64,000 nucleotides of DNA from Desulfovibrio sp. (lineage in GTDB: Bacteria; Desulfobacterota; Desulfovibrionia; Desulfovibrionales; Desulfovibrionaceae): NCBI GenBank assembly GCA_016208105.1, contig JACQYS010000020.1:124001-188000 (forward strand), in the 5' to 3' direction. The notes under the pieces were generated by a model that worked only from the letters and a program-made list of their open reading frames with translations, searched no databases and was not told where the DNA came from. Of this stretch, positions 40,452 to 64,000 are shown piece by piece (the stretch's first letter is position 1; the number at the start of each line of letters is the position of its first letter). A program made the position numbers and the translations under genes.

Positions 40452-41195
40452 TCAACCGGCGATATCCTCGCACAGATACCGGCCTATCGAGCATTTGAAC
40501 CTGTATTTGTCTCCCCGGTAGATGGCGTGGGTGAATTCCACCGCCCGCCCCTTGTCGTTGAACACCACCCCTTCGGACCAGATGCACGGGCATCTCTCCC
40601 CAATCTTCAGAAGCTTCCGCTCGCTCTCGCTTGGCATGACGGCGCCTATCTCCTGGCGTGAATGGATGAGGTTCATGCCGTATACGCTGTCGATTATTTT
40701 ATACAGAACAGTGTCCAAGGAAAGCGTCAGCAGATCGGGAAACAGCTCGGCCGGAAGAAAACAATGCTCCAGAACCAGGGGGACGTCGCTTGCGAGCATG
40801 AGACGATACAGGGAGATGACCTCCGACCCCACAGCGACCTTGAGATGCGCCGCAACCGTTTCATCGGCAGGGATGGTCTTGGCTTCGAGTGTTTTGTAGC
40901 GCGGCACCAAACCCGCTTTGGCGATATCGTCGTGGTAGGTGGAGATAGTTTCCAGGGACCGGGTGAGCACCGGCCTTTTTTCGGAGAGCAGATACGTTCC
41001 CTTGCCGCGCTTGCGCACCAGCATGTGGTCGCTCACGAGCTTGTCGATGGCTTGGCGCACCGTCATCCGGTGCACTCCGAACATCGTGGAAAGCTCGCTC
41101 TCGTTGGGGATTTTGTCGCCAGGGCGGAACGCCTTGCTGGTTATCTGTTCGGAGAGCCATTCGTAAATGGCCATGTATTTCGATTTGGTGGTCAA
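40452..41195 (-). CDS. HutC-type GntR-family regulator of the taurine genes
   Basis: About 247 residues. Start chosen at a TTG (41195) with GGAGG four bases upstream, so that the protein begins just before the typical YMAIYEWLSEQI; an ATG at 41174 is the alternative, while the longer open frame has no support. The N-terminal winged helix (KIPNESELSTMFGVHRMTVRQAIDKL, in part) is followed by a UTRA ligand domain. It diverges from tpa and the intergenic region has two palindromes that match the HutC operator core GTMTAKAC, so it most likely represses the taurine operon and senses a pathway compound. It is not the MocR/TauR-type regulator known from other taurine loci. Confidence 0.88.
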   Translation of the reverse strand: MTTKSKYMAIYEWLSEQITSKAFRPGDKIPNESELSTMFGVHRMTVRQAIDKLVSDHMLVRKRGKGTYLLSEKRPVLTRSLETISTYHDDIAKAGLVPRYKTLEAKTIPADETVAAHLKVAVGSEVISLYRLMLASDVPLVLEHCFLPAELFPDLLTLSLDTVLYKIIDSVYGMNLIHSRQEIGAVMPSESERKLLKIGERCPCIWSEGVVFNDKGRAVEFTHAIYRGDKYRFKCSIGRYLCEDIAG

Positions 41196-41508
41196 AATCG
41201 CCTCCGTCAAGTTTTCATGCTTTCCGAGAATACCATGCGCTGATGCCTGCCCCATCGCAAGAACCAGCAGAGCACAGACGCTGCGGCTTTTCACTCTGTG
41301 CTTGCAGCACACCATAGCCGGAAAGAACGGTCATGGTCGAGCCTGTGTTGCCTGGTGTTCCAGTCTTCTTTTCCACTTTCCTCCTCCTGGCGGATATCGC
41401 CATTTTTTTATTAAACGACATGGTCATTTAAATTCAAGATGTTATCGCAGCACCACACATTGAATTTGCCAATATTTTTTCATTATTGAAAATTTTTGCA
41501 CTCGCAGC

Positions 41509-41550
41509 TTGACAAATTCACGCTAGCCCTCCACCATATTGTCTAGACAA
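41509..41550 (+). promoter_or_regulatory. Promoter-operator module 1 for the taurine operon
   Basis: -35 TTGACA at 41509-41514; weak -10 candidate CACCAT at 41532-41537 (17-bp spacer); perfect palindrome TTGTCTAGACAA at 41539-41550. The core GTCTAGAC fits the published HutC-subfamily operator pattern GTMTAKAC. The operator would cover the transcription start. Confidence 0.65.
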
Positions 41551-41602
41551 CCTGGAGATCTTTTTCCGCTCCGGGAAGACCATGGGATTTTCTAAAAACC
41601 GC

Positions 41603-41644
41603 TTGACAAAAAAATAACAACCTCACATCATCATGTCTAGACAA
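41603..41644 (+). promoter_or_regulatory. Promoter-operator module 2 for the taurine operon
   Basis: -35 TTGACA at 41603-41608; -10 CATCAT at 41626-41631 (17-bp spacer); operator ATGTCTAGACAA at 41633-41644. The distance from -35 to operator (30 bp) is identical in module 1, and the two operators are 94 bp apart, close to nine helical turns. A transcript from here would have a leader of about 120 nt. The rest of 41196-41760 is AT-rich and shows no gene. Confidence 0.7.
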
Positions 41645-41760
41645 AGTTTGCGCAGGCTTCCTGCACTCCCAGGAAAGGCAAACACCCGCGCAGGCACAGG
41701 AGTCGAAATCGAACCCAGGGCGGATGAATATCCGTCACCCGAGATACTCCGAGGAGGGAC

Positions 41761-43143
41761 ATGATGAACAAGTCCGAAACAGTAAGCCCGGAAGCCTATG
41801 CCCAGTCCGACCTCACGCACGTGTGGCACCACCTGGTGCAGCACCAGGCCTTTGCCGCCAAAGGGCCAATGATCGTGGTCGAGGGTGACGGATTGCGGCT
41901 CAAAGACATTAACGGCAAGGAGTACCTGGACGCCACCTCCGGCGGGGTTTGGTGCGTGAACGTGGGCTACGGCAGGGACCGCATCGCGGACGCAGTCTGC
42001 GCCCAGATGAAGAAGATGCCCTACTACGCTGCCACCGCAGGCAACATCCCCTTCATCGAGCTCGCCGAAGAGGTCACCTCCCACATGCCCGGGCTTACCC
42101 GGATTTACCTGTCCAACAGCGGTTCCGAGGCCAACGAGAAGGCCTATAAGATCGTACGCGCCCTGGCCCACATCACCGGCAACACCACTAAGAAAAAGGT
42201 CCTGTACCGCAACCGCGACTACCACGGCACCACCATTGCCGCGCTGAGCTCCTGCGGACAGCCCGAGCGCAGAGAGTGGTTCGGTCCGTTCGTTCCAGGT
42301 TTCGTGGAGTTCCCCCACGCCTGCTGCTACCGTTGCGCCTTCGGCAAGACCTACCCCGGCTGCGACATCGACTGCGCCAAGTCGGTCGAACGCATCATCC
42401 AGGAAGAAGGCCCGGAGACCATCGGCGGCCTCATCGTGGAGCCCATCACCGCCGGAGGCGGGGTGATACCCCCGGTGAGCGAATACTACGACGTGCTCGC
42501 GGAAATCTGCCGCAGGCACGGGGTTCTCATAATCATGGACGAAGTGGTCTGCGGCATGGGCCGCACTGGCACCATGTTCGGCTACCAGCAGTACGGGGTG
42601 ACCCCGGACATCGTGACCATGGCCAAGGGCGTGGCCAGCGCCTACATGCCGATCTCCATCACCGCCACCACCGAGGACATCTTCAAGGCCTTCCTGCACG
42701 ACCCGGCCGACAAGCTGGCCTACTTCCGCGACATAAGCACCTACGGCGGCTGCGCCGCCGCCTGCACCGCCGCCCTGGAGAACATGAAGATCATCGAGGA
42801 AGAGAATCTCCTTTCTAACGTCACGGCCATGGGCGCCTACCTGCTGGATGGGCTCAGAGGCCTCCTTACCCATCCCAATGTCGGGGACGTGCGCGGCAAG
42901 GGGCTCCTGTGCGGCGTGGAATTCGTCGAGGACAAGAAATCCAAAAAGCCCCTGCCCGAGAGCAAGGTCATCCAGATCGTCGGTGAAGCCGCCGCCCAGG
43001 GCGTGCTGCTCGGCCGGACCAACCGCAGTTTCCCTGGACTCAACAACATCATCAACATGGCACCGGCCTATGTGGTTACCAAGGCGGACATCGACGCCAT
43101 CGTTTCCACCCTTCGCCAGGCAATTGCCAAAATCCTGGGCTGA
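41761..43143 (+). CDS. tpa: Taurine-pyruvate aminotransferase
   Basis: 460 residues, class III PLP aminotransferase. The cofactor lysine is near residue 289 (TMAKGVASAYMP), preceded by the DEVVCGMGRTG motif. The N-terminal part (HVWHHLVQH, DINGKEYLDATSGGVWCVNVGYG in part) matches Tpa from Bilophila. It transfers the amino group of taurine to pyruvate, giving sulfoacetaldehyde and alanine. GAGGAGG lies directly before tandem ATG codons; I use the first. Followed by ald, which regenerates pyruvate. Other omega-amino acids such as beta-alanine are possible side substrates. Confidence 0.92.
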   Translation: MMNKSETVSPEAYAQSDLTHVWHHLVQHQAFAAKGPMIVVEGDGLRLKDINGKEYLDATSGGVWCVNVGYGRDRIADAVCAQMKKMPYYAATAGNIPFIELAEEVTSHMPGLTRIYLSNSGSEANEKAYKIVRALAHITGNTTKKKVLYRNRDYHGTTIAALSSCGQPERREWFGPFVPGFVEFPHACCYRCAFGKTYPGCDIDCAKSVERIIQEEGPETIGGLIVEPITAGGGVIPPVSEYYDVLAEICRRHGVLIIMDEVVCGMGRTGTMFGYQQYGVTPDIVTMAKGVASAYMPISITATTEDIFKAFLHDPADKLAYFRDISTYGGCAAACTAALENMKIIEEENLLSNVTAMGAYLLDGLRGLLTHPNVGDVRGKGLLCGVEFVEDKKSKKPLPESKVIQIVGEAAAQGVLLGRTNRSFPGLNNIINMAPAYVVTKADIDAIVSTLRQAIAKILG

Positions 43144-43170: not shown

Positions 43171-44280
43171 ATGAAAGTCGGCGTTTTAAAAGAGATAAAA
43201 GTCAAAGAGAACCGCGTTTCCATGACCCCGGCCGGGGTGCTGGCCATGCGTTCGGGCGGGCACGAAGTTCTTGTGGAAAAGGGAGCAGGGGCCGGGGCGG
43301 GCTTTCCCGACGACGACTACACCGCTGCCGGGGCGTCGCTGGCCACGGCCGACGAGATCTTCGCCCAATGCGGCATGGTCATGCACGTGAAGGAGCCCCA
43401 GCCGTCGGAATTCGGCAAGCTCCGCAAGGACCAGATACTCTTTACCTACCTGCATCTTGCCGCGGACGAAGCCCAGACCAAGGCCCTCATGAAGGCCGGC
43501 AACGTAAACATCGCCTACGAGACCATCCAGAAAAAGGACGGCAGCCTGCCGCTGCTCACTCCCATGTCCGAAGTGGCCGGGCGCATGGCCATACAACAGG
43601 CGGCCAAATACCTGGAAATCCCCACTGGCGGCATGGGCAAGCTGATGGGCGGAGTCCCCGGGGTGGAGCCGGCAACCGTGGTGGTCATCGGCGGAGGCGT
43701 GGTGGGGCTCAATGCCGCCAAGATGGCCTGCGGCTTAGGCGCCCTGGTCTACCTGCTGGATATGAACCTCGACCGCCTGCGCCACCTGAATGACATCATG
43801 CCCCCCAACTGCATCACCATGATGAGCGGGGCCTACAACATCCGCAAGCTTCTGCCCCTGGCCGACGTGGTGGTGGGCGCCGTGCTCATCCCGGGTGCAA
43901 AGGCTCCCCACCTGATAAGCCGGGACGACTTAAAGCTCATGCGCAAGGGCGCCATCCTGGTGGACGTGGCCATCGACCAGGGAGGCTGCTTCGAGACATC
44001 ACGGCCCACCACCCACAGCGACCCGGTCTACGAGGTGGACGGTGTGCAGCACTACTGCGTGGCCAACATCCCCGGTGCCGTGGCCATCACCTCCACCTTG
44101 GCCCTGACCAATGCCACCCTTCCCTATGCAGTGAAGATCGCCAACATGGGCTGGAAGGACGCCTGCCGCGCCAATGAAGACATCCTGAAGGGACTCAACG
44201 TGGTGGACGGCAAGATAACGTACGCCGCGGTGGCCGAAGCCTTCGGGCTGCCCTACACCCCGGCCGATCAGGTGCTGTAG
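43171..44280 (+). CDS. ald: Alanine dehydrogenase
   Basis: 369 residues, normal length. MKVGVLKEIKVKENRVSMTP at the start, the substrate lysine and histidine in MHVKEPQ and FTYLHLAAD, and the NAD site VVVIGGGVVGLNAAKMA. It oxidises alanine to pyruvate and ammonia with NAD, recycling the amino acceptor of Tpa and releasing the taurine nitrogen. Located 27 bp after tpa with AAGGAG upstream of the ATG. Confidence 0.95.
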   Translation: MKVGVLKEIKVKENRVSMTPAGVLAMRSGGHEVLVEKGAGAGAGFPDDDYTAAGASLATADEIFAQCGMVMHVKEPQPSEFGKLRKDQILFTYLHLAADEAQTKALMKAGNVNIAYETIQKKDGSLPLLTPMSEVAGRMAIQQAAKYLEIPTGGMGKLMGGVPGVEPATVVVIGGGVVGLNAAKMACGLGALVYLLDMNLDRLRHLNDIMPPNCITMMSGAYNIRKLLPLADVVVGAVLIPGAKAPHLISRDDLKLMRKGAILVDVAIDQGGCFETSRPTTHSDPVYEVDGVQHYCVANIPGAVAITSTLALTNATLPYAVKIANMGWKDACRANEDILKGLNVVDGKITYAAVAEAFGLPYTPADQVL

Positions 44281-44304: not shown

Positions 44305-45060
44305 GTGGAAGAGAAGGACCAGCGCAAGGTCAAGATCGAGGTCAAGAACCTGACCAAGAGGTTCGGCGAGCTCTTGGTCCTCGACGACATCTCCTTTGAT
44401 GTGGCCGAAGGTGAATTCGTGGCCATCGTCGGCCCGACAGGGTGCGGCAAGACCACGTTTTTGAACGCCCTGTCGCGCCTCATTCCCATCACGAGTGGCC
44501 AGATTCTCATAAACGGCGAAGACGCGGACCCCAAACGCCACAACATATCCTTTGTTTTCCAGGAACCCACTTGCATGCCGTGGAGCACGGTGCGCGACAA
44601 CGTGGCCTTCGGCATGGAAATCAAGGGACTGCCCAGGAATGAGATAGAAAAGCGCCTGGACCGCATCCTCGAAATGGTGGGCCTTACCCAGTGCGCCCAT
44701 CTGTTCCCCAACCAGGTCTCGGCCAGCATGATGCAGCGCATCGCCGTGTCGCGCGCCTTCGCCGTGGACCCGGATCTTCTGCTTATGGACGAACCTTACG
44801 GGCAGCTCGACGTGAAGCTCAGGTTCTACCTTGAGGACGAGCTGGTCAACCTGTGGCGAGACCTCAAGAGCACGGTGCTTTTTATCACCCACAACATTGA
44901 AGAGGCAGTCTACGTGGCCGAGCGCATCCTGGTGCTCTCCAACAAGCCCACCACCATCAAGGCGGAGATCAAGGTGGACCTGCCTCGGCCCAGGGACTTC
45001 ATGGACCCGGAATTCGTGCGGATCCGGCGGCAGGTCACGGACCTGATCCGCTGGTGGTGA
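44305..45060 (+). CDS. Sulfonate-type ABC transporter ATPase with degenerate signature
   Basis: 251 residues, GTG start. Of the SsuB/TauB branch. Walker A (GPTGCGKTT, 43-51) and Walker B (LLLMDEPYGQLD, from 158) are intact, but the LSGGQ signature is replaced by VSASM (138-142). In ABC dimers the signature of one subunit completes the ATP site of the other, so this subunit contributes a poor signature to its partner's site. It works with the second ATPase at 47979-48758 and the two permeases as a heteromeric importer, probably for taurine. Confidence 0.9.
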   Translation: MEEKDQRKVKIEVKNLTKRFGELLVLDDISFDVAEGEFVAIVGPTGCGKTTFLNALSRLIPITSGQILINGEDADPKRHNISFVFQEPTCMPWSTVRDNVAFGMEIKGLPRNEIEKRLDRILEMVGLTQCAHLFPNQVSASMMQRIAVSRAFAVDPDLLLMDEPYGQLDVKLRFYLEDELVNLWRDLKSTVLFITHNIEEAVYVAERILVLSNKPTTIKAEIKVDLPRPRDFMDPEFVRIRRQVTDLIRWW

Positions 45061-45145: not shown

Positions 45146-46213
45146 ATGCTTCAAACGAAACGTTGGATGGCAGCCCTCGCAGCCTGTGCGCTCCTACTGG
45201 CTCTGTCGATCTCCGCCCAGGCTCAAGGCACGCCCAAAGTTCTCAACACAACCTGGCAGGCCGAACACGAGACCTTCGTCCCGTGGTACGCCAAGCAAAA
45301 AGGCTGGGACAAGGCCCAGGGATTCGAATTCAAACTGCACATGTTCGATTCGGGCATGGCCCAGATCGAAGCCCTGCCCGCCAAGCAATGGGTGGTCGGC
45401 GGAACCGGCGGCGTGCCCATGATGTTCGGGGCCCTGCGCCAAAACGCCTATCTCATTGGCATCGGCAACGACGAATCCGTGACCAATGCCGTGCTCGTGC
45501 GCCCGGACAGCCCCATTTTGAAGGCCAAGGGCGCCAACCCCAAATACCCTGACGTGTTCGGCTCGGCCGAAACCGTGAAGGGCAAGACCATCCTGTGCAC
45601 CACCATCTCCTCGGGCCACTACGCCATGAGCCTGTGGCTCAAGGCTTTGGGCCTCACCGACAAGGACGTGGTGATAAAGAACATGGACCCGGCCCAGTGC
45701 GTGGCCGCATTTGAGAAGGGCATCGGGGACGCCGTGGTCCTCTGGGCCCCCCAGATGTACAACGGCCTGAAAAAGGGCTGGAAAGTGGCCTCGGACGTGA
45801 AGAAGGCCGGCGGGTTCGTGCCCATCGTGCTCATCGGCGACAAGGACTACTGCGACAAGAACCCCGAAGAAGTGGCCAAGTTCTTGAAGGTCTATTTCCA
45901 GGGCATCGACCTTCTGCGCAAGGAAGGCGTCAAGCTGGCTCCGGAATACGCCAAGTTCCTCAAGTGGGCCGGCCTCAATATGACCGAGGACGAAGCCAAG
46001 ATGGACCTGGAGCTGCACCCGGTGTTCACACTGGAAGAACAGCTCAAGATGTTCGACTCTTCCAAGGGCGAAAGCCAGGTGCAGGCCTGGCAGAAGGATC
46101 TGGTCAAATTCTTCACCGAACTCGGCAAGCTGAAACCCGCCGAGGGCGAGAAGCTCCAGACCGGCTTCTACATCACCGACAAGTTCCTGAAGATGGTTCC
46201 CAACGTAAAATAA
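45146..46213 (+). CDS. Periplasmic taurine/sulfonate binding protein
   Basis: 355 residues. A clear signal peptide ends at SISAQA near residue 27. The mature part follows the SsuA/TauA/NMT1 fold (AEHETFVPWYAKQKGWDK, MFDSGMAQIEALPAKQWVVG in part). It is the substrate-capturing part of the transporter. It lies between the first ATPase and the permeases, with an AGGAGG site. Taurine is inferred as ligand from the operon; other organosulfonates are possible. Confidence 0.88.
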   Translation: MLQTKRWMAALAACALLLALSISAQAQGTPKVLNTTWQAEHETFVPWYAKQKGWDKAQGFEFKLHMFDSGMAQIEALPAKQWVVGGTGGVPMMFGALRQNAYLIGIGNDESVTNAVLVRPDSPILKAKGANPKYPDVFGSAETVKGKTILCTTISSGHYAMSLWLKALGLTDKDVVIKNMDPAQCVAAFEKGIGDAVVLWAPQMYNGLKKGWKVASDVKKAGGFVPIVLIGDKDYCDKNPEEVAKFLKVYFQGIDLLRKEGVKLAPEYAKFLKWAGLNMTEDEAKMDLELHPVFTLEEQLKMFDSSKGESQVQAWQKDLVKFFTELGKLKPAEGEKLQTGFYITDKFLKMVPNVK

Positions 46214-46286: not shown

Positions 46287-47084
46287 ATGACAGCCTACAG
46301 GGAGATCAAAGTCCACACGCCGCTGGCTCTGAAGATTCTGCCGGTGGTGAGCGTGGCCGGGTTCTTCGCCGTCTGGGAGTTCGTGGTGCGCACCGGCATG
46401 GTGCCGGAAACCATGCTGGCCGCCCCGAGCACTGTGGTGGAGCTGCTCTTTCTGAAGCTGTGGAACGCCGATCCGGATGGCGCGCTGCTGCACGAGCATG
46501 CCTGGATAAGCATTCAGGAAGCCTTCAGCGGCTACTTTCTGTCCCTCATGGTCGGGCTGCCTTTGGGATTAGCCATGGGCTGGTTCGTGGCGGCCGAAGG
46601 TCTGGCCCGTCCCGTGTTCGAAATCATCCGCCCCATACCTCCCGTGGCCTGGATTCCCCTGACCATCTTCTGGTTCGGCATCGGCCTGCCAGGCAAGATA
46701 TTCATCATCTGGATAGGCGGATTGGTCCCCTGCGTCATTAACGCCTACGTGGGAGTGAAGATGACCAACCCGACGCTTATCCAGATGGCCAGGACCTACG
46801 GGGCAAGCGACTGGCAGATCTTCAAAAGGCTGTGCATCCCCTCGGCCCTGCCCATGGTTTTCGGAGCCCTGCAGATCGCCCTGGCCTGCTGCTGGACCAA
46901 CCTCGTGGCCGCGGAGCTTCTGGCCGCCGACGCGGGGCTCGGATTCATGATCACCATGGGCCGCAGGCTGGCCCTGCCGGAGATGGTGGTGCTCGGCATG
47001 TTCATGGTGGGGCTCACGGGCGCGGTCATCGGAGTGGCCATCGACAGGGTGGAAAAACGGCTCCTGGCCGGGATCAGGAGATAA
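46287..47084 (+). CDS. Sulfonate-type ABC permease, first subunit
   Basis: 265 residues, six helices, SsuC/TauC family. The cytoplasmic ATPase-contact loop is visible near residue 165 (RTYGASDWQIFKRLCIPSAL, 20 residues), with GFMITMGRRLALPEMVVLGM afterwards. Pairs with the next gene, four bases downstream, to form the channel. Confidence 0.9.
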   Translation: MTAYREIKVHTPLALKILPVVSVAGFFAVWEFVVRTGMVPETMLAAPSTVVELLFLKLWNADPDGALLHEHAWISIQEAFSGYFLSLMVGLPLGLAMGWFVAAEGLARPVFEIIRPIPPVAWIPLTIFWFGIGLPGKIFIIWIGGLVPCVINAYVGVKMTNPTLIQMARTYGASDWQIFKRLCIPSALPMVFGALQIALACCWTNLVAAELLAADAGLGFMITMGRRLALPEMVVLGMFMVGLTGAVIGVAIDRVEKRLLAGIRR

Positions 47085-47087
47085 CTC

Positions 47088-47957
47088 ATGTCCAAAAAAA
47101 CACCACACTGCACCGCAGTAGCCAACGAAACCGTCTCGGGGTGTTCGGACCACGGCCCACTTACCCTGAGGAGGGTGCTCGGCAACCGCTGGTTCCTGTA
47201 CTGCGTCTCCCTGGTCGCGTTCTTCACCACCTGGGACACGGTGGCCCGCTTCGGAGCTCTCGGCGGCGGTACCAGCGCCCTGGCCACTCCCGTGGAGGTA
47301 CTCGAACAGCTGGTGTACCTCTGGGACAACGAACTGGCCGAAATGACCCTCTGGGGTCACATCTGGGCCAGCACCCAGCGCGTGCTGGTCGGCTTTTCCA
47401 TAGCCGCGGCCATCGCCGTGCCCCTGGGCCTGTTCATGGCGCTCAACCGCTACGTGAACGCCCTGGTCAAGCCGCTCTTCGACCTTTTGAAGCCCATGCC
47501 GCCCATCTCCTGGATATCCATCTCCATCCTGTGGTTCGGCATCGGAGAGACTTCCAAGGTCTTCATCATCGTCCTGGGAACGTTCGTGCCCTGCCTGCTG
47601 AATGCCTACAACGGCGTCCGCCTGGTTGAACCCGAGCTCTACGACGTCATCCGGACCCTGGGCGGCAACCGGCGCGACGAAATCCTGCACGTGTGCTTCC
47701 CGGCCTCGTTCCCGGCCATCTTCGCCGGGCTTCAGATTTCGCTCTCCATAGCCTGGACCTGCGTTCTGGCCGCCGAACTGGTCAGCGCCCGGTCCGGGCT
47801 CGGGTTCATCATCGTCCAGGGCATGAACCTCTCCCAACCGGCTCTCGTGATGGGCGGCATGGCTGTCATCGCCATGGCGGCCTGGGGCACCACGCTTCTG
47901 GTCACCGCCTTGGAGAGAAAGCTGTGCCCGTGGAAACGAAAGGTCGCGGGCCTCTAA
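47088..47957 (+). CDS. Sulfonate-type ABC permease, second subunit
   Basis: 289 residues, six helices. The coupling loop reads RTLGGNRRDEILHVCFPASF (20 residues) and the following part GLGFIIVQGMNLSQPALVMG. Sequence clearly different from the first permease, so the channel is a heterodimer. Confidence 0.9.
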   Translation: MSKKTPHCTAVANETVSGCSDHGPLTLRRVLGNRWFLYCVSLVAFFTTWDTVARFGALGGGTSALATPVEVLEQLVYLWDNELAEMTLWGHIWASTQRVLVGFSIAAAIAVPLGLFMALNRYVNALVKPLFDLLKPMPPISWISISILWFGIGETSKVFIIVLGTFVPCLLNAYNGVRLVEPELYDVIRTLGGNRRDEILHVCFPASFPAIFAGLQISLSIAWTCVLAAELVSARSGLGFIIVQGMNLSQPALVMGGMAVIAMAAWGTTLLVTALERKLCPWKRKVAGL

Positions 47958-47978: not shown

Positions 47979-48758
47979 GTGGACAATGCCGCCAAGCCTT
48001 CCAAGATAAAGATTGAATGCAAGAACGTGTGCAAGACCTTCATCCAGAAGGGCCACCAGGAAGTGCCCGTGCTCGAGGACGTGAGCATCGAGGTCCACGA
48101 GAACGAATTCCTGGTGATATTAGGCCCTGGTCAGTGCGGCAAAAGTACGCTCCTGCGCATCATGGCCGGGCTTGAAATCCCCACCTCCGGGACAGTCACC
48201 CTGGACGGCAAGGAAGTGACCGGGCCCGGCGCGGACCGTGGCCTGGTGTTTCAGGGGTACATGCTCTTTCCCTGGAAGACGGTGCTCGGAAACGTGGAGA
48301 TGGGTCCCAAGCTCTGCGGCCTGCCCAAATGCCAGCAGCGCGAGATCGCCCTGCACTACATCAACCTGGTGGGTCTTTCCGGCTTCGAGCAGCACTACCC
48401 GCACCAGCTCTCGGGCGGCATGAAGCAGCGGGTGGGCATAGCCCGGTCCTACGCCAACAAGCCCGAAGTCATGCTCCTGGACGAACCCTTCGGACAGCTC
48501 GACGCCCAGACGCGGATATTCATGGAGCAGGAGACGGAACGCATCTGGCAGCACGAGAAGCGCACTGTCCTGTTTGTCACCAACAACACCGACGAAGCCC
48601 TTTTCCTCGGAGACCGCATCGTGACCATGGAGGGCAAGCTCCCGGGCCGGGTGCAGCGGACATACACCGTCGATCTCCCGAGACCCAGGGACTTAACCGA
48701 CATGCGATTTCTCGAGATGCGCCGGGAGATCATCGACTCGTCGGTACTCACCCTCTAG
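47979..48758 (+). CDS. Sulfonate-type ABC transporter ATPase, canonical signature
   Basis: 259 residues, GTG start. Walker A is GPGQCGKST (49-57), with Q where the second glycine of the loop is normal; the signature LSGGM (144-148) and Walker B VMLLDEPFGQLD are canonical. It supplies the good signature to the ATP site of the first ATPase and receives the poor one, giving one consensus and one degenerate site. Last transporter gene before the alcohol dehydrogenase. Confidence 0.9.
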   Translation: MDNAAKPSKIKIECKNVCKTFIQKGHQEVPVLEDVSIEVHENEFLVILGPGQCGKSTLLRIMAGLEIPTSGTVTLDGKEVTGPGADRGLVFQGYMLFPWKTVLGNVEMGPKLCGLPKCQQREIALHYINLVGLSGFEQHYPHQLSGGMKQRVGIARSYANKPEVMLLDEPFGQLDAQTRIFMEQETERIWQHEKRTVLFVTNNTDEALFLGDRIVTMEGKLPGRVQRTYTVDLPRPRDLTDMRFLEMRREIIDSSVLTL

Positions 48759-48782: not shown

Positions 48783-49940
48783 GTGGTTCACGCGTTCAAC
48801 TCGGTCCGAAGGATCGTTCATGGTTTCGGCAGCATCCAGTCCGTTGGTGAGGAAGCAAAACGCCTGGGCGCTGGCAAGGTCCTGGTGGTCACGGACCCGG
48901 GAGTCCAGAAGGCTGGCATTCTGGACATCCTGGCTAGGGCATTGGAGAATGCGGGGCTCAAGACCGACTTCTTCACGGGCGTGGAACCGGACCCCAAGAT
49001 CGAAGTGGTGGACCTGAGCCTGGCGGCCGCCAGAGAAGCCAAGCCGGACGTGATCATCGGCATGGGTGGCGGGAGTTCCTTAGACATCGCCAAGGCCACG
49101 TCCGTGCTCATGACCAACGAAGGCCCCATCGACAAGTATTTTGGCATGGAACTGGTACCCAAACCGGGCCTGCCGCTCCTGCTCATACCGACCACGGCCG
49201 GAACCGGCAGCGAAATGACCTCCATCAGCGTTCTGTCCGACACCTTAAACGATGTCAAAAAAGGTATCGTGAGCGAACACATGTTCGCCAAGGTCGTCCT
49301 GCTCGATCCGGAACTCACCATCGGCCTGCCTCCGGCTCTCACTGCAACCACGGGCATGGACGCCCTGGTCCACGCCATCGAATCCTTCACGGGCGTACGG
49401 GCCACGCCCTTCACGGACCTCTTGAACCGCGAATCCATCGCTCTTGTGGCCGCCAACCTCCGCAAGGCCTTTGCCAACGGGTCGAACAGGGCGGCACGGG
49501 AGAACATGCTCTACGCCAGCTGCCTGTCCGGAATGGCCTTTTCCAACACCCAGAACGGGCTCATCCACGCCATCGCCTTGGCCATCGGCGGCAAGTTCCA
49601 TCTGCCCCACGGATTGCTCACGGCCTTCATCTGCCCATGGGTGATGGAGTTCAACCTGCTGGCCACCCCGGCCAAGTTCATCGAGATTGCCCGGCTTTTC
49701 GGCGAGAGCGTCCAGGGCCTGCCCGAAATCCAGGCGGCGCGCTTGAGCGTCAAGGCGGTGAAGTCTCTGTTGGATGATCTGCGCATCCCCTACACATTGA
49801 AAAGCTACGGCGTGCCCCGCGAGGCCATCGAAAACATCGCCAAGGCCACTCTTGGAGCGGCGCGGCTTATCGGCAACAACCCGAGGGCCGTGACCGAGAA
49901 GGAGGTCGTGGAGCTTCTGAAGGCCAACTACGGCGACTAG
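48783..49940 (+). CDS. sarD: Iron-containing alcohol dehydrogenase, probable sulfoacetaldehyde reductase
   Basis: 385 residues, GTG start with GGAGG upstream. Group III Fe-dependent dehydrogenase: NAD site GMGGGSSLDIAKA, PTTAGTGSEMTS, and metal ligands in TGMDALVHAIES (Asp, His), GLIHAIALAIGGKFHLPHG (two His). In Bilophila, SarD of this family reduces sulfoacetaldehyde from Tpa to isethionate; the same gene set tpa-ald-sarD is found here, so this function is assigned by context and family. No sulfoacetaldehyde acetyltransferase (Xsc) gene is present, which supports the reductive branch. The final enzyme, isethionate sulfite-lyase, must be elsewhere. Confidence 0.82.
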   Translation: MVHAFNSVRRIVHGFGSIQSVGEEAKRLGAGKVLVVTDPGVQKAGILDILARALENAGLKTDFFTGVEPDPKIEVVDLSLAAAREAKPDVIIGMGGGSSLDIAKATSVLMTNEGPIDKYFGMELVPKPGLPLLLIPTTAGTGSEMTSISVLSDTLNDVKKGIVSEHMFAKVVLLDPELTIGLPPALTATTGMDALVHAIESFTGVRATPFTDLLNRESIALVAANLRKAFANGSNRAARENMLYASCLSGMAFSNTQNGLIHAIALAIGGKFHLPHGLLTAFICPWVMEFNLLATPAKFIEIARLFGESVQGLPEIQAARLSVKAVKSLLDDLRIPYTLKSYGVPREAIENIAKATLGAARLIGNNPRAVTEKEVVELLKANYGD

Positions 49941-50182: not shown

Positions 50183-52141
50183 ATGGCCTGGACTGAGAAA
50201 GACAGACCCTGGCTGGCAGCCTACTGGCTGGCGGCATTCTGCCTGGCCTGGCTTGTCTTTGACCGGGCCGCCTTCGGCCTCATCGACGACTATTTCTTTT
50301 TTGAAGAGTCCCTTGTTCACGGCCACTGGAAAATGCTCTGGGGCGATCCCTCCGGTCGCTTTTATCCGCTGTGCGGCAAGGAATTCTTCATACTCCGGGA
50401 ATTCGGCATCCTCTCGGCTCCGCTCTTCTACTCCATCCAGGCCTTGAAAGTTCTCGCTGGGGCGTATTTCGCCCTGGGCATACTGCGCCGCGCCGGAGCG
50501 TCTCCCCGCATGGCTTTCGTTGTAGCCCTCTTCGTTTTCGGTTCACCGGCGTACATGGTGGCGGTGTCCAGGCTCTTCGTTGCCGAACTTACCCCGTTCA
50601 CGCTTTTTTTGGCCGCCCTGTGTTTCCTGCCTGACCGGGAACGGGGTCCCGCATGGCGCTTTCCACTCGCCCTGGCCTGCGCCACCATCGCCCTGTTTCA
50701 CAAGGAACCTGGATTTCTGGCCGTGGGGACCATGGGCGCGGTTCTCTTCCTCATGCCTCGCCGAAGCGCTCCCCCGGACCGGTTCATGGGCACATGCCTC
50801 ATGGCCAGCGCGACCTTCTTTTTTCTATCGTATATGGCCTTCGGGTACAGCTACATGACGGAGAACGACTACACCGTCGGGCGCACCCTTGGCATGGCCG
50901 TCACCGCCGAATTCTTCGCACGAAACGACGCTCCGCTTGTCGCCATGTTCATCATCTGTCTGACGCACTGGTTCCGGCTTCTCAAAGCCCGTACCATCGC
51001 ACCTTTCGAAACCGCATGTCTGGCCGCGTCCCTGGTTTACGCCGGGGCCTACCTGGGGCTTCGCATCACCTCTCCATGGTATCTCCTGCCAGCCTACGCT
51101 TTCATTCTGCCGGTTCTTCCACCCGCCCTGGCCTGGACATCTGAAATTCTCCCGCGCGGCGGCAACGCATTTCGAATTGTGCTCTTCCCGGGTTGTCTCC
51201 TTGCTGGTTGCCTCTGGGCGATTGCCGGGTACGGCTTTCTCGATTTCAACAAGGCCGCGGCAAAAGGAGCGGAACAGTTTCTGAACTATCTGAGCGCCAA
51301 CCGCCCGGAGCCCGGCCAGCCAGCCGCTCCCCTTGTCTTCCCGAGAGAGTCCGGTGAGGCCGAAGTATCCCAGAGCCTCCGGGTTCTTTTGATGGCCAGG
51401 GGGCTGGACAAGGCCTTCTCACCGGTCTTTTCCGGGCTCTACGACATATGGCGAACCTTGGATGCTCGGCCGGGATTGGCCGTGCTGACGCCCTACACCC
51501 ACACAAATCTTGAAGAAATACATCAGCTTGCCTCCTGCCGCGCAAGCCTTCTGGACACCGGCGCTCCGGCTGCGTTTCCCAACGCGCTGGCATCTCTTCT
51601 GGGGCTTTCCGCACCAGACGGAACAAGCCGGAAAACACTGATGTCTACAGGAGCATTCAGGGTATTCGCGCAAGCCCCGGCCTCGCCTCAATCATCCGGC
51701 ACCACCCCCTGCCCCCGTGGCTTCGAGTGGTCGTTTCTGCAAGCAACAACCCCGGTCCGGGGTGTCAAGGTCTGCCCGCTGACCGGCGGATCCCTGCCAA
51801 TGCGCCTGACCAACGCGTCCGCGGAGAGTTTCATCTTGAATCAGTCGGATCCGGCAGGAATCGTACGCATCGTCCTATTCACCGCCCTGCCGGGAGAGAG
51901 CCCGCGCCCGATCGGTTCGCATCCCCTGCCTGAGCGCCTCGCGCCAGGAGAAAGCGTCGATATCCGCCTGGACTTTTCCATTTTCACCCGCCAGCCCGGC
52001 ATCATCAGTGTGGCCTTGGGCATGGCTGACGGGCAGGATGTCCGTTTCGTCCTGGACAGACCGCTTTTCACCAGCAATTTCCTTCCCCGCTTTGCCCAAT
52101 GCTGGGCCCCCCAGGAGGACCTGCTGAAAGGTACCCCTTGA
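50183..52141 (+). CDS. Polytopic membrane protein, GT-C-glycosyltransferase-like
   Basis: 652 residues. About ten to eleven hydrophobic helices in the first 380 residues, then a soluble C-terminal region of about 270 residues. The first loop after helix 1 has an acidic pair (LIDDYFFFEE, residues 35-44), the position of the catalytic Asp in GT-C enzymes that use lipid-linked sugars. No named family is recognised with confidence. As the first gene of the sugar locus it may transfer the modified sugar outside the membrane (inference). The ribosome site is weak. Confidence 0.7.
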   Translation: MAWTEKDRPWLAAYWLAAFCLAWLVFDRAAFGLIDDYFFFEESLVHGHWKMLWGDPSGRFYPLCGKEFFILREFGILSAPLFYSIQALKVLAGAYFALGILRRAGASPRMAFVVALFVFGSPAYMVAVSRLFVAELTPFTLFLAALCFLPDRERGPAWRFPLALACATIALFHKEPGFLAVGTMGAVLFLMPRRSAPPDRFMGTCLMASATFFFLSYMAFGYSYMTENDYTVGRTLGMAVTAEFFARNDAPLVAMFIICLTHWFRLLKARTIAPFETACLAASLVYAGAYLGLRITSPWYLLPAYAFILPVLPPALAWTSEILPRGGNAFRIVLFPGCLLAGCLWAIAGYGFLDFNKAAAKGAEQFLNYLSANRPEPGQPAAPLVFPRESGEAEVSQSLRVLLMARGLDKAFSPVFSGLYDIWRTLDARPGLAVLTPYTHTNLEEIHQLASCRASLLDTGAPAAFPNALASLLGLSAPDGTSRKTLMSTGAFRVFAQAPASPQSSGTTPCPRGFEWSFLQATTPVRGVKVCPLTGGSLPMRLTNASAESFILNQSDPAGIVRIVLFTALPGESPRPIGSHPLPERLAPGESVDIRLDFSIFTRQPGIISVALGMADGQDVRFVLDRPLFTSNFLPRFAQCWAPQEDLLKGTP

Positions 52142-61911: not shown

Positions 61912-62709
61912 CTACCCCAGCCAACGCTTGCGTCTGCGGTAGTGTTTGACATCCCGGTAGTCGCGCTTCTGGCCGCCTCGGGAGAGCCCCAGGTAGAACT
62001 CCTGAACATCGGGATTGTTCAAAAGCGTCTGGGATTCTCCCTCAAGCACGATGCGTCCGTTTTCCATGATAAAGCCGCTGTGGGCAATGTTCAGGGCCGC
62101 CCTTGCGTTCTGCTCCACCAAAAGGATGGTGGCCCCGGATTCTTGGTTTACCCGGGCGATGATCTCGAAAATCTCTTCCACCAAAAGCGGGGCCAGGCCA
62201 AGGGACGGCTCGTCCAGCAAAAGGAGCCTCGGTTTGGCCATAAGGGCGCGGCCTATGGCCAGCATCTGCTGCTCGCCGCCGGACATGTAGCCAGCCAGCT
62301 GTTTGCGGCGCTCCTTGAGCCGGGGGAAATACCCGTAGACCATCTCCAGGGAATCGGCCTTTTCCGAGCTAGGCCTCGTGTACCCACCGCAGCGAAGGTT
62401 GTCCTCCACGGTCATGTCCTGAAAGACCCGCCTCCCCTCCATCACCTGGAAAACCCCGGTCCGGACGATTTTCTCCGGTGATAGCCGGTGGATGGGCGAG
62501 CCATCGAAGAGAACCCGCCCATCCGTGATCTTGCCTTCCTCACCGACCAGAAGCCCGGAAATGGCCTTGAGCGTGGTGGATTTACCAGCCCCGTTGGCGC
62601 CCAACAGAGCCGTTATCCGCCCGTCAGCGGCCGTGAGCGACAACCCCTTGAGCACAAGGATCACGTCGTTGTACACGACCTCGAGATTCTCAACGCAGAG
62701 CAGATCCAC
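61912..62709 (-). CDS. livF: Branched-chain-amino-acid-type ABC transporter ATPase (second system)
   Basis: 265 residues from a GTG at 62709 with GGAGG five bases upstream, so that the protein begins just before LCVENLEVVYND. Walker A GANGAGKST, signature MSGGEQQM, Walker B LLLLDEPSLGLAP. The C terminus has an extra basic tail of about 30 residues (RGGQKRDYRDVKHYRRRKRW, 20 residues) not usual in LivF. Part of a second liv-type importer; substrate probably the acid used by the ligase next door (inference). Confidence 0.9.
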   Translation of the reverse strand: MDLLCVENLEVVYNDVILVLKGLSLTAADGRITALLGANGAGKSTTLKAISGLLVGEEGKITDGRVLFDGSPIHRLSPEKIVRTGVFQVMEGRRVFQDMTVEDNLRCGGYTRPSSEKADSLEMVYGYFPRLKERRKQLAGYMSGGEQQMLAIGRALMAKPRLLLLDEPSLGLAPLLVEEIFEIIARVNQESGATILLVEQNARAALNIAHSGFIMENGRIVLEGESQTLLNNPDVQEFYLGLSRGGQKRDYRDVKHYRRRKRWLG

Positions 62710-62767
62710 CAGGGCCTCCAGACTGTTGCAGCGGGGCAATTCTAAGGGGCGTGCCCCCCTCCACGAA

Positions 62768-63940
62768 CTATTTACCCAGCCATTCCTTCTTGCGCTCCAG
62801 GGACTGCTTGGCCAGAAGCTGCAATTTCCCGCCCTTGAAAGCGTAGAGATACACGCTCATGTTGGGACGGTGGTCGTCGGGGAAATAGCTGATGGGAGGG
62901 GTGAGCCCCATGGGATCGAAGTCGCGCAGGGTTTCCAGGGCGGCCTTGATCTCCTCGCCGCCAAGCTTGCCCTTGGCCTGGGCGCGCTTGATGCCCTCGG
63001 CCATGACCAGCATGCTGGCGAAACCGCGGATGTAGTGGGTCATCTGGGGTTTGCCGTCGGTGAGCTTCTCGATGACCTTCATGCCGGGCACGTCCTGGCC
63101 GTAAGTGACGGCCGCCTGGAGCGAGATGACCCCTTCGGCTGCTGGTCCGGCCAGAAGGGCCAGGTTCTCGTCCGCACCCCAGATATTGGTGAAGAACTGG
63201 GTCTTGAGCGCCAGTTTCTGGGCATCCTTCAAGATGACGGCCGTGGACTGGGTGGTGCCGCCGATCCAGGTGAAATCCGGGGCCAGCTTGGCCAGGCGCA
63301 AGAGCTGGGCGGTGGCGTCCATTGCCTTCAGATCCACGTTTTCCTCGCCCACCAACTCGAAGCCCAATTCTTTTGCGTATTCCTTGGCAGGAGGAATGGA
63401 GACCAGCCCGTAGGGCACGTTGGGAAAGATAAGGGCCAACTTGGGAGCCCGGGACTCCTTCCAGTTGTCCTTGAAATACTTGAGAGCGGCGCGGACCTGT
63501 GTGGAGTAGTCGGCGGCCACGAAGAAGTTATAGGGTGCTTTTGCCGGATCGGTCAGGTGGGCAGAGTACGATGCAGAGATGGTCGGAATCTTGTCCTTGG
63601 AGACGAACTGGGTCAGGGCTTCGGTGTCCTGGGTGCCCCAACCCTGCAGGAAGAGTATCTTGTCCTGGGAGGTGAACTTCTTGTAGGCCGAGAGAGCCTG
63701 CTGGGCGTTGTAGGCATAGTCAACCAGGGTGAACTTCAGCTTGGCCGCTCCCAGCAGACCAGCATCGTTTATGTACTTGGCCCCGTCGCGCAGGCCGCTG
63801 GCGTAGGGAGTGCTGACGTCGGAGGTGGGGCCGGACAGGTCGGCCAACATGCCGATGCTGATTTCCTGGGCCAGGGCGGCCGGGGCCAGAAGCGCCACCA
63901 GGGCCAGGCCACACGCGAGTTGCCTAAGAATGTGTTTCAC
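62768..63940 (-). CDS. livK: Periplasmic binding protein of the second liv-type transporter
   Basis: 390 residues from a GTG at 63940 (GGAGG upstream), so that the signal peptide ends at LAPAALAQ near residue 25. Mature start ISIGMLADLSGPTSDVSTPY is the LivK/aromatic-acid-binding pattern. Followed by the ATPase and the ligase. Ligand unknown; aromatic acids are bound by several relatives. Confidence 0.88.
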   Translation of the reverse strand: MKHILRQLACGLALVALLAPAALAQEISIGMLADLSGPTSDVSTPYASGLRDGAKYINDAGLLGAAKLKFTLVDYAYNAQQALSAYKKFTSQDKILFLQGWGTQDTEALTQFVSKDKIPTISASYSAHLTDPAKAPYNFFVAADYSTQVRAALKYFKDNWKESRAPKLALIFPNVPYGLVSIPPAKEYAKELGFELVGEENVDLKAMDATAQLLRLAKLAPDFTWIGGTTQSTAVILKDAQKLALKTQFFTNIWGADENLALLAGPAAEGVISLQAAVTYGQDVPGMKVIEKLTDGKPQMTHYIRGFASMLVMAEGIKRAQAKGKLGGEEIKAALETLRDFDPMGLTPPISYFPDDHRPNMSVYLYAFKGGKLQLLAKQSLERKKEWLGK

Positions 63941-63960
63941 GGGCGTCGTCCTCCAGTTGG

Positions 63961-64000
63961 TTAGTGAGCGAAGGGGTAGAGCTTCCAATAGGCCTTGGTC
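63961..64000 (-). CDS. C-terminal tail of a probable LivM permease (rest off window)
   Basis: The last 12 codons and stop of a gene entering from the right on the minus strand, reading TKAYWKLYPFAH. This ending is common for LivM permeases directly upstream of livK in such operons. Only the tail is seen, so the identity is provisional. Confidence 0.5.
   Translation of the reverse strand, partial: TKAYWKLYPFAH

Follow-up and report, generated by a model that had tools for sequence, protein, structure and literature searches.

Operators of the HutC family of regulators follow the consensus NyGTMTAKACNy, and divergons in which two such sites lie between the gene of the transcription factor and a structural operon are a described class; 60 such HutC divergons that include the transcription factor gene have been counted (Suvorova et al., 2015, PMC4494728). 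The GntR-HutC subfamily includes NagR/YvoA of Bacillus subtilis and DasR of Streptomyces, both of which combine a GntR with a UTRA domain and have palindromic operators, the dre sites. These dre sites carry the core GTCTAGAC, the same as that found at the locus considered here. The string also appears in the text of PMC4333415 and PMC4398421, and in NagR, Arg38 reads G-5 and Arg48 reads G-4 of the operator (PMC4333415). AraR of B. subtilis has a GntR-type DNA-binding domain as well, and loops the DNA between paired operators that have to be in phase and properly spaced (PMC4218819). For taurine genes, the described GntR-type protein is TauR of Rhodobacter capsulatus, a regulator of MocR type with an aminotransferase-like domain (PMC5320631) and an activator according to a reference title cited in PMC4494728.

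How does the present locus relate to these systems? Judged from its sequence, it appears to be a real locus of an ordinary kind, a further HutC divergon, with one predicted detail that seems undescribed: a single operator together with two overlapping divergent promoters. The preliminary description of this DNA had held that no taurine locus with twin promoter-operator modules in register was known. This stands with respect to the main text of PMC4494728, which names no taurine operon of the kind and contains the word 'taurine' solely in a reference title, but it does not extend to the design as such, since both double-site HutC divergons (PMC4494728) and the in-phase loop operators of AraR (PMC4218819) have been described. 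The main text of three papers on Bilophila and Taurinivorans taurine metabolism does not contain 'GntR', and among titles and abstract openings, in a literature sample that covered few subscription papers, we recognised no HutC-type taurine regulator.

The window, by which we mean the whole stretch of 64,000 nucleotides that was analysed (G000:C20:124001-188000, from a genome of 4.18 Mb), contains a GntR-UTRA regulator gene and, divergent from it across an intergenic region at 41196-41760, a taurine-type operon (Table 1). A taurine-type operon is supported by the class-III aminotransferase, the alanine dehydrogenase and the sulfonate/taurine-type ABC transporter, the enzyme names being assigned from family and context. 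Because no protein of the genome reaches the Xsc family cut-off (best 337.7 bits against 676.4) and an isethionate sulfite-lyase homologue is encoded on contig 8 (1458.5 bits to 7kq3), the iron-type alcohol dehydrogenase would have a SarD-like role, and the operon most likely sends taurine via sulfoacetaldehyde to isethionate, as in Bilophila (PMC6386719). A tblastn search for an xsc remnant between the distal operator and the regulator gene gave nothing better than E 1.2, and the two RNA family matches obtained are both far below gathering scores. The genome also encodes a choline trimethylamine-lyase homologue (C23:41083-43029; 1678.5 bits to 5fau). Elsewhere in the window, two open reading frames of 652 and 490 aa (50183-52141 and 62492-63964) give no Pfam match at E 0.001. 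The stretch around them contains glycosyltransferase, NDP-hexose 2,3-dehydratase and DegT-type aminotransferase genes, and the two frames possibly belong to a sugar-decoration cluster.

Table 1. Features of the regulator-tpa region and the taurine-type operon, in window coordinates.
Feature	Position	Strand	Basis
GntR-UTRA (HutC-type) regulator	40452..41195	-	Pfam GntR E 2.8e-20, UTRA E 3.6e-33; 247 aa + stop
Regulator start TTG (predicted)	41195		GGAGG at 41201-41205, 5 nt upstream; orthologue starts agree
Terminator-like hairpin with T run	41388..41410	+ direction	Weak: 2 terminator-like sites in region, 0.6 expected (shuffles)
-35-like TTGACA of distal module (putative P2)	41509..41514	+	Exact offset in 24/20,000 shuffles
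Very weak -10-like CACCAT (3/6) of distal module, 17-bp spacer	41532..41537	+	By eye
Distal operator O2 (predicted), TTGTCTAGACAA	41539..41550	.	Direct reading; two sites in G004 too, there 256 bp apart
-35 of proximal taurine promoter P1, TTGACA	41603..41608	+	Kept in 12/12 genomes with proximal site
Candidate extended -10 of divergent promoter, TGNTATTTT (with T as N in the window), separated from TAGACA by 17 bp	41611..41619	-	Conservation
Weak -10 of P1, CATCAT (4/6), 17-bp spacer	41626..41631	+	Consensus scan; poorly conserved in relatives
Proximal operator O1 (predicted), ATGTCTAGACAA	41633..41644	.	Overlaps expected P1 start; kept in relatives
Candidate -35 TAGACA of divergent promoter = O1 half-site	41634..41639	-	Consensus scan and conservation
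tpa, taurine:pyruvate aminotransferase-like, class III	41761..43143	+	Pfam Aminotran_3; substrate predicted from operon
ald, alanine dehydrogenase	43171..44280	+	NCBIfam TIGR00518 above cut-off
ABC transporter ATPase	44305..45060	+	Family search
Sulfonate/taurine-type substrate-binding protein	45146..46213	+	TIGR01728 and TIGR01729, both below cut-off
ABC transporter permease	46287..47084	+	Family search
ABC transporter permease	47088..47957	+	Top NCBIfam match TauC, below cut-off
ABC transporter ATPase	47979..48758	+	Family search
Iron-type alcohol dehydrogenase, likely sulfoacetaldehyde reductase (SarD-like)	48783..49940	+	Pfam Fe-ADH; SarD role predicted

The regulator comprises an N-terminal GntR winged helix (PF00392, 72.2 bits, cut-off 27) and a C-terminal UTRA domain (PF07702, 114.8 bits, cut-off 23.8), the latter in place of the aminotransferase-like sensor domain of a MocR-type TauR. 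The sensor domain of AraR likewise differs from UTRA. Scores for the named equivalogs HutC (114.5 bits, cut-off 220), PhnF (106.5, 156.8), TreR (88.6, 211.95) and PhnR (93.2, 296.75) are below their NCBIfam cut-offs, and the HutC-type repressors NagR/YvoA (E 1e-29) and DasR (E 3e-26), which match distantly, serve amino-sugar genes, whereas the genes here are of taurine type. The residue that corresponds to Arg48 of NagR is Arg43, invariant in 10/10 aligned sequences including the window's own, in line with the G at operator position -4. Arg38 is replaced by Ser33 and the operator has a T at -5, which is what loss of the Arg38 contact would predict. The core GTCTAGAC fits the HutC consensus of PMC4494728, just as the preliminary description had it. 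Together with these contact residues and the fact that regulator orthologue and operator mostly co-occur, this fit supports the assignment of the sites to the neighbouring regulator.

Both TTGACA boxes, each followed 30 bp on (start to start) by a 12-mer palindrome, are confirmed by reading the sequence. The palindromes, ATGTCTAGACAA at O1 and TTGTCTAGACAA at O2, differ by one mismatch; their cores are 94 bp apart, and in the proximal and distal modules alike the core begins 32 bp after the start of TTGACA. Within the window, GTCTAGAC occurs twice against 0.35 expected (at least two in 3/100 whole-window shuffles), and the 12-mer with up to two mismatches occurs twice against 0.87 (at least two in 23/100). 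With that tolerance the 12-mer alone is not rare; what is rare is the clustering of the sites in the gap, as 20,000 dinucleotide shuffles of 41196-41760 produced at least one GTCTAGAC in 31 cases and two or more in none, which makes a chance origin of the pair unlikely. Across the 4.18-Mb genome, TGTCTAGACA is found three times, two of them at this locus, and a reversed control pattern once. A recent duplication of one module from the other is not obvious, given 41 identical positions over 81 bp and 11/24 in the interval between TTGACA and palindrome.

How widely is this arrangement kept? A search of the order (348 genomes) for the regulator gave 20 genomes with a match at E 1e-20 or better and, among these, 15 with at least 58% identity, counting a 113-aa fragment in G108, a copy cut at a contig end in G070 and the copy of G338, which may be cut short because its match runs across a TAG close to the end. 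A search for tpa in 22 chosen genomes (those 15, five further ones of the genus, G045 and G092) gave matches at 1e-150 in 14, with at least 74% identity in 11 (G000, G004, G107, G109-G114, G067 and G070), all of which are among the 15 regulator-bearing genomes. Every one of these 11 has TTGACA 31-33 bp before GTCTAGAC upstream of tpa, and G338 (UBA6079), whose contig ends before tpa, is the twelfth genome with the proximal module; three further loci that repeat G111, G109 and G107 in the compared stretch were not counted separately. The proximal module is thus common to four genera (g1, g45, g54 and g40). The distal site is not general among relatives: a second palindrome is present in 4/12 genomes (G000, G004, G067 and G070), and none was seen near tpa in the stretches examined of the other eight (in G338 only in part). 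Of the six same-genus genomes examined for comparison with G000, G004 alone has the locus, and the gaps of G000 and G004 share essentially one block, 41602-41648, with 42/47 positions identical, the rest hardly aligning.

In the genomes examined of g45 (G112 and G114), and in G338 and G070, the divergent gene is an xsc over the family cut-off, followed by the regulator gene; in G067 the contig end leaves no more than the beginning of an xsc-like gene. The regulator is not always accompanied by the palindrome, because G062 and G069, in which it lies beside xsc and a tpa of only 55% identity is located elsewhere, yielded none of the site forms searched for within 18.0 and 15.2 kb, respectively; GGTCTAGTCA upstream of xsc in both may be a decayed site. 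Beyond the order, 395 genomes sampled from the phylum returned 11 regulator matches, of which one is the window's own and the other ten have E values of 1.2e-56 to 2.4e-51; relatives in 357 plasmid records are all below 60% identity, and a Desulfobulbaceae MAG with a 65% relative shows no operator within the 8.9 kb examined. Stray pieces of the gene also occur. One at G004:C25 ~43493-43610 (L067), near a pyruvate-formate-lyase-like gene (G004:C25:45209-47143), comprises the final 38 codons of the taurine regulator and encodes the same protein sequence as the intact gene of G004 (by eye). A shorter similar fragment of 25 residues at 64% is present with a comparable gene nearby at G001:C1 280434-280508 (L068; by eye) in a genome in which the full regulator was not found. 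These fragments look like a broken copy or a recombination scar.

A consensus scan of the intergenic region returned three promoter-like sites against 0.6 expected; toward tpa it accepted the proximal promoter and not the distal one. On the minus strand it found TAGACA-N17-TATTTT preceded by TG. The form TAGACA-N17-TAT(T/C)TT with TG before it is present in 10/10 of the g1, g45 and g54 genomes that have the proximal site, nine with TG and TATTTT and the tenth, G338, with TG and TATCTT. Among the seven distinct spacers, 7/8 columns of the extended -10 are invariant as against 4/18 other spacer columns (Fisher p 0.003, a post hoc and descriptive value, the pattern having first been noticed in the very sequences tested), and the variable columns of the block include the N of TGN. 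Shuffling of the G000 spacer placed TATNTT at that position in 272/20,000 cases, and TG with it in 40/20,000. The proximal sites of G067 and G070 lack the divergent promoter (TAGACC, TCTTTT); there, the second palindrome carries TAGACA-N17-TATTTC directed at xsc, a weaker case with a -10 match of only 3/6.

What might these elements do? We think it probable that the region is a divergon under a HutC-type repressor in which O1 serves as the main switch of both directions and O2 as an independent second site. The repressor would most likely sense taurine or a taurine metabolite. A dimer on O1 would cover the start of P1 together with the TAGACA of the divergent promoter, which overlaps P1 and would read toward the regulator gene, and both directions would thereby be shut at once. 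O2 is situated on the regulator side of the divergent promoter, before the regulator gene, and begins 30 bp from the start of the taurine-facing TTGACA. It may have as its likeliest role an independent tightening of control, namely autoregulation of the regulator, for example as a roadblock ~55-65 bp into the regulator transcript, and/or closing of a weak second start. Several observations speak against this reading: the -10 of P1 is weak and unconserved, O2 has no regulator-directed consensus promoter (by eye), the TATTTC of G067 and G070 is a poor match, and G062 and G069 keep the regulator beside xsc without a palindrome.

The case for independent sites comes from two genomes, which likewise counsels caution. 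Between G000 and G004, the gap widens from 565 to 713 bp and the inter-site distance from 94 to 256 bp, while the centre of O1 is 122.5 and 124.5 bp from the tpa start and that of O2 349.5 and 333.5 bp from the regulator start. The near-constant inter-site distance of common-site (cooperative) divergons in PMC4494728 is thus not seen in these two genomes; instead the sites separate as the gap widens and each tracks its own gene, O2 from a distance of 350 bp, a pattern which PMC4494728 assigns to independent sites each serving its own gene. This is a hint only that O1 and O2 may act independently.

We envision, tentatively and at somewhat less than even likelihood, a wider scenario in which a HutC operator is shared by two fully overlapping opposed promoters, with the taurine -35 upstream of it and its own half-site TAGACA as the divergent -35. 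In relatives such a switch would act on xsc; here, where the genome is without xsc and has a probable isethionate route, it would act on the regulator itself. The G067/G070 lineage would have split the two jobs onto two palindromes, and the window's genus would have gained or kept the second palindrome as a roadblock on the transcript of the regulator. The locus provides a concrete candidate for the switching of taurine breakdown to sulfite in Desulfovibrio-type bacteria, both in those with Xsc and in those probably using isethionate sulfite-lyase, and a short operator by which further targets could be found.

Alternatively, the two modules might be stacked promoters that are both repressed without looping, the distal one, which this lineage would have acquired, being a weak second start toward tpa under a separate operator. 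Of the stacked repressed promoters originally proposed, the proximal promoter-operator module is supported and the distal promoter is doubtful. TTGACA at the shared 32-bp offset argues for a tpa-directed role of O2, as it arose at that exact place in only 24/20,000 shuffles of the preceding 130 bp, and G004 has TTGACC-N15-TCTAAT just 5' of its distal operator (by eye). Nevertheless, the distal -10 matches in 3/6 positions, G004 has TTGACC at offset 27 instead of TTGACA at 32, and a distal transcript would have to cross O1, for which reasons we hold this arrangement to be possible but rather doubtful. Less probable still, O2 could be a leftover or a drifting spare copy that does little and has either persisted by chance or arisen recently. 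The lack of a visible second site in 8/12 genomes would agree with this, as would the weak alignment of the stretch between O2 and the regulator gene in G000 and G004 (local score 33, equalled in 3/300 shuffles), where the positions of O2 in the two genomes do not align. Against this, the 12 bp of the palindrome match perfectly, and G004 has a second site despite its diverged surroundings, which argues for selection and makes an idle O2 unlikely.

The operators had also been proposed to bind cooperatively in helical register. Their distance is indeed about nine turns in G000 (8.95 at 10.5 bp per turn), but the 256 bp of G004 correspond to 24.4 turns and the 278 bp of G070 and 290 bp of G067 to 26.5 and 27.6, so that looping in register finds no support, the phase required by AraR (PMC4218819) not being kept across the four genomes. 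Two stacked taurine promoters, each with an operator and joined by a small DNA loop of nine turns, are thus the least probable reading, improbable in our view even with the equal TTGACA offsets and the AraR precedent of a GntR-type DNA-binding domain in their favour, given that there is no common phase, that a single palindrome was seen near tpa in the stretches examined of 8/12 genomes and that the distal -10 is weak.

The genome scan that had been suggested in order to define a regulon yielded a single further TGTCTAGACA, at C22:79572. On inspection by eye, neither strand has a correctly spaced TTGACA there, and we recognised no gene of taurine type within the surrounding 12 kb; we take this third copy as chance because the reversed control pattern was likewise found once, and a genome-wide regulon in G000 is therefore not supported. 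Looser TGTMTAKACA sites number six in G000 (control six), two in G004 (control none) and three in G045 (control seven). Across the 348 genomes of the order, TTGACN-gap-GTCTAGAC occurs in 21; because dozens of genomes also matched the reversed control, the pattern by itself is no proof, and what counts here is its position before tpa.

Nine of those 21 genomes are beyond the 12 with the proximal module, two with TTGACA (G061 and G119) and seven with TTGACC or TTGACG. At G061:C10:79898 (L118), GTCTAGAC lies between a PhnF-like regulator and a divergent phnG-like frame (names by eye), with TTGACA inside the start of the latter. Related HutC regulators of the order may therefore have an operator core in common, with cross-talk as a possible result. 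At G119:C95:14284 (L129), TGTCTAGACA is directly 5' of a small Phd-like antitoxin frame followed by a PIN-like frame (names by eye), possibly as the autoregulatory site of a toxin-antitoxin pair. A corollary of these two loci is that GTCTAGAC is not exclusive to taurine. Finally, G271 (L057) presents another twin-site design, in which two GTATAGAC palindromes at 1399 and 1423, 24 bp apart and after a TTGACA, sit upstream of a more distant HutC-type regulator.
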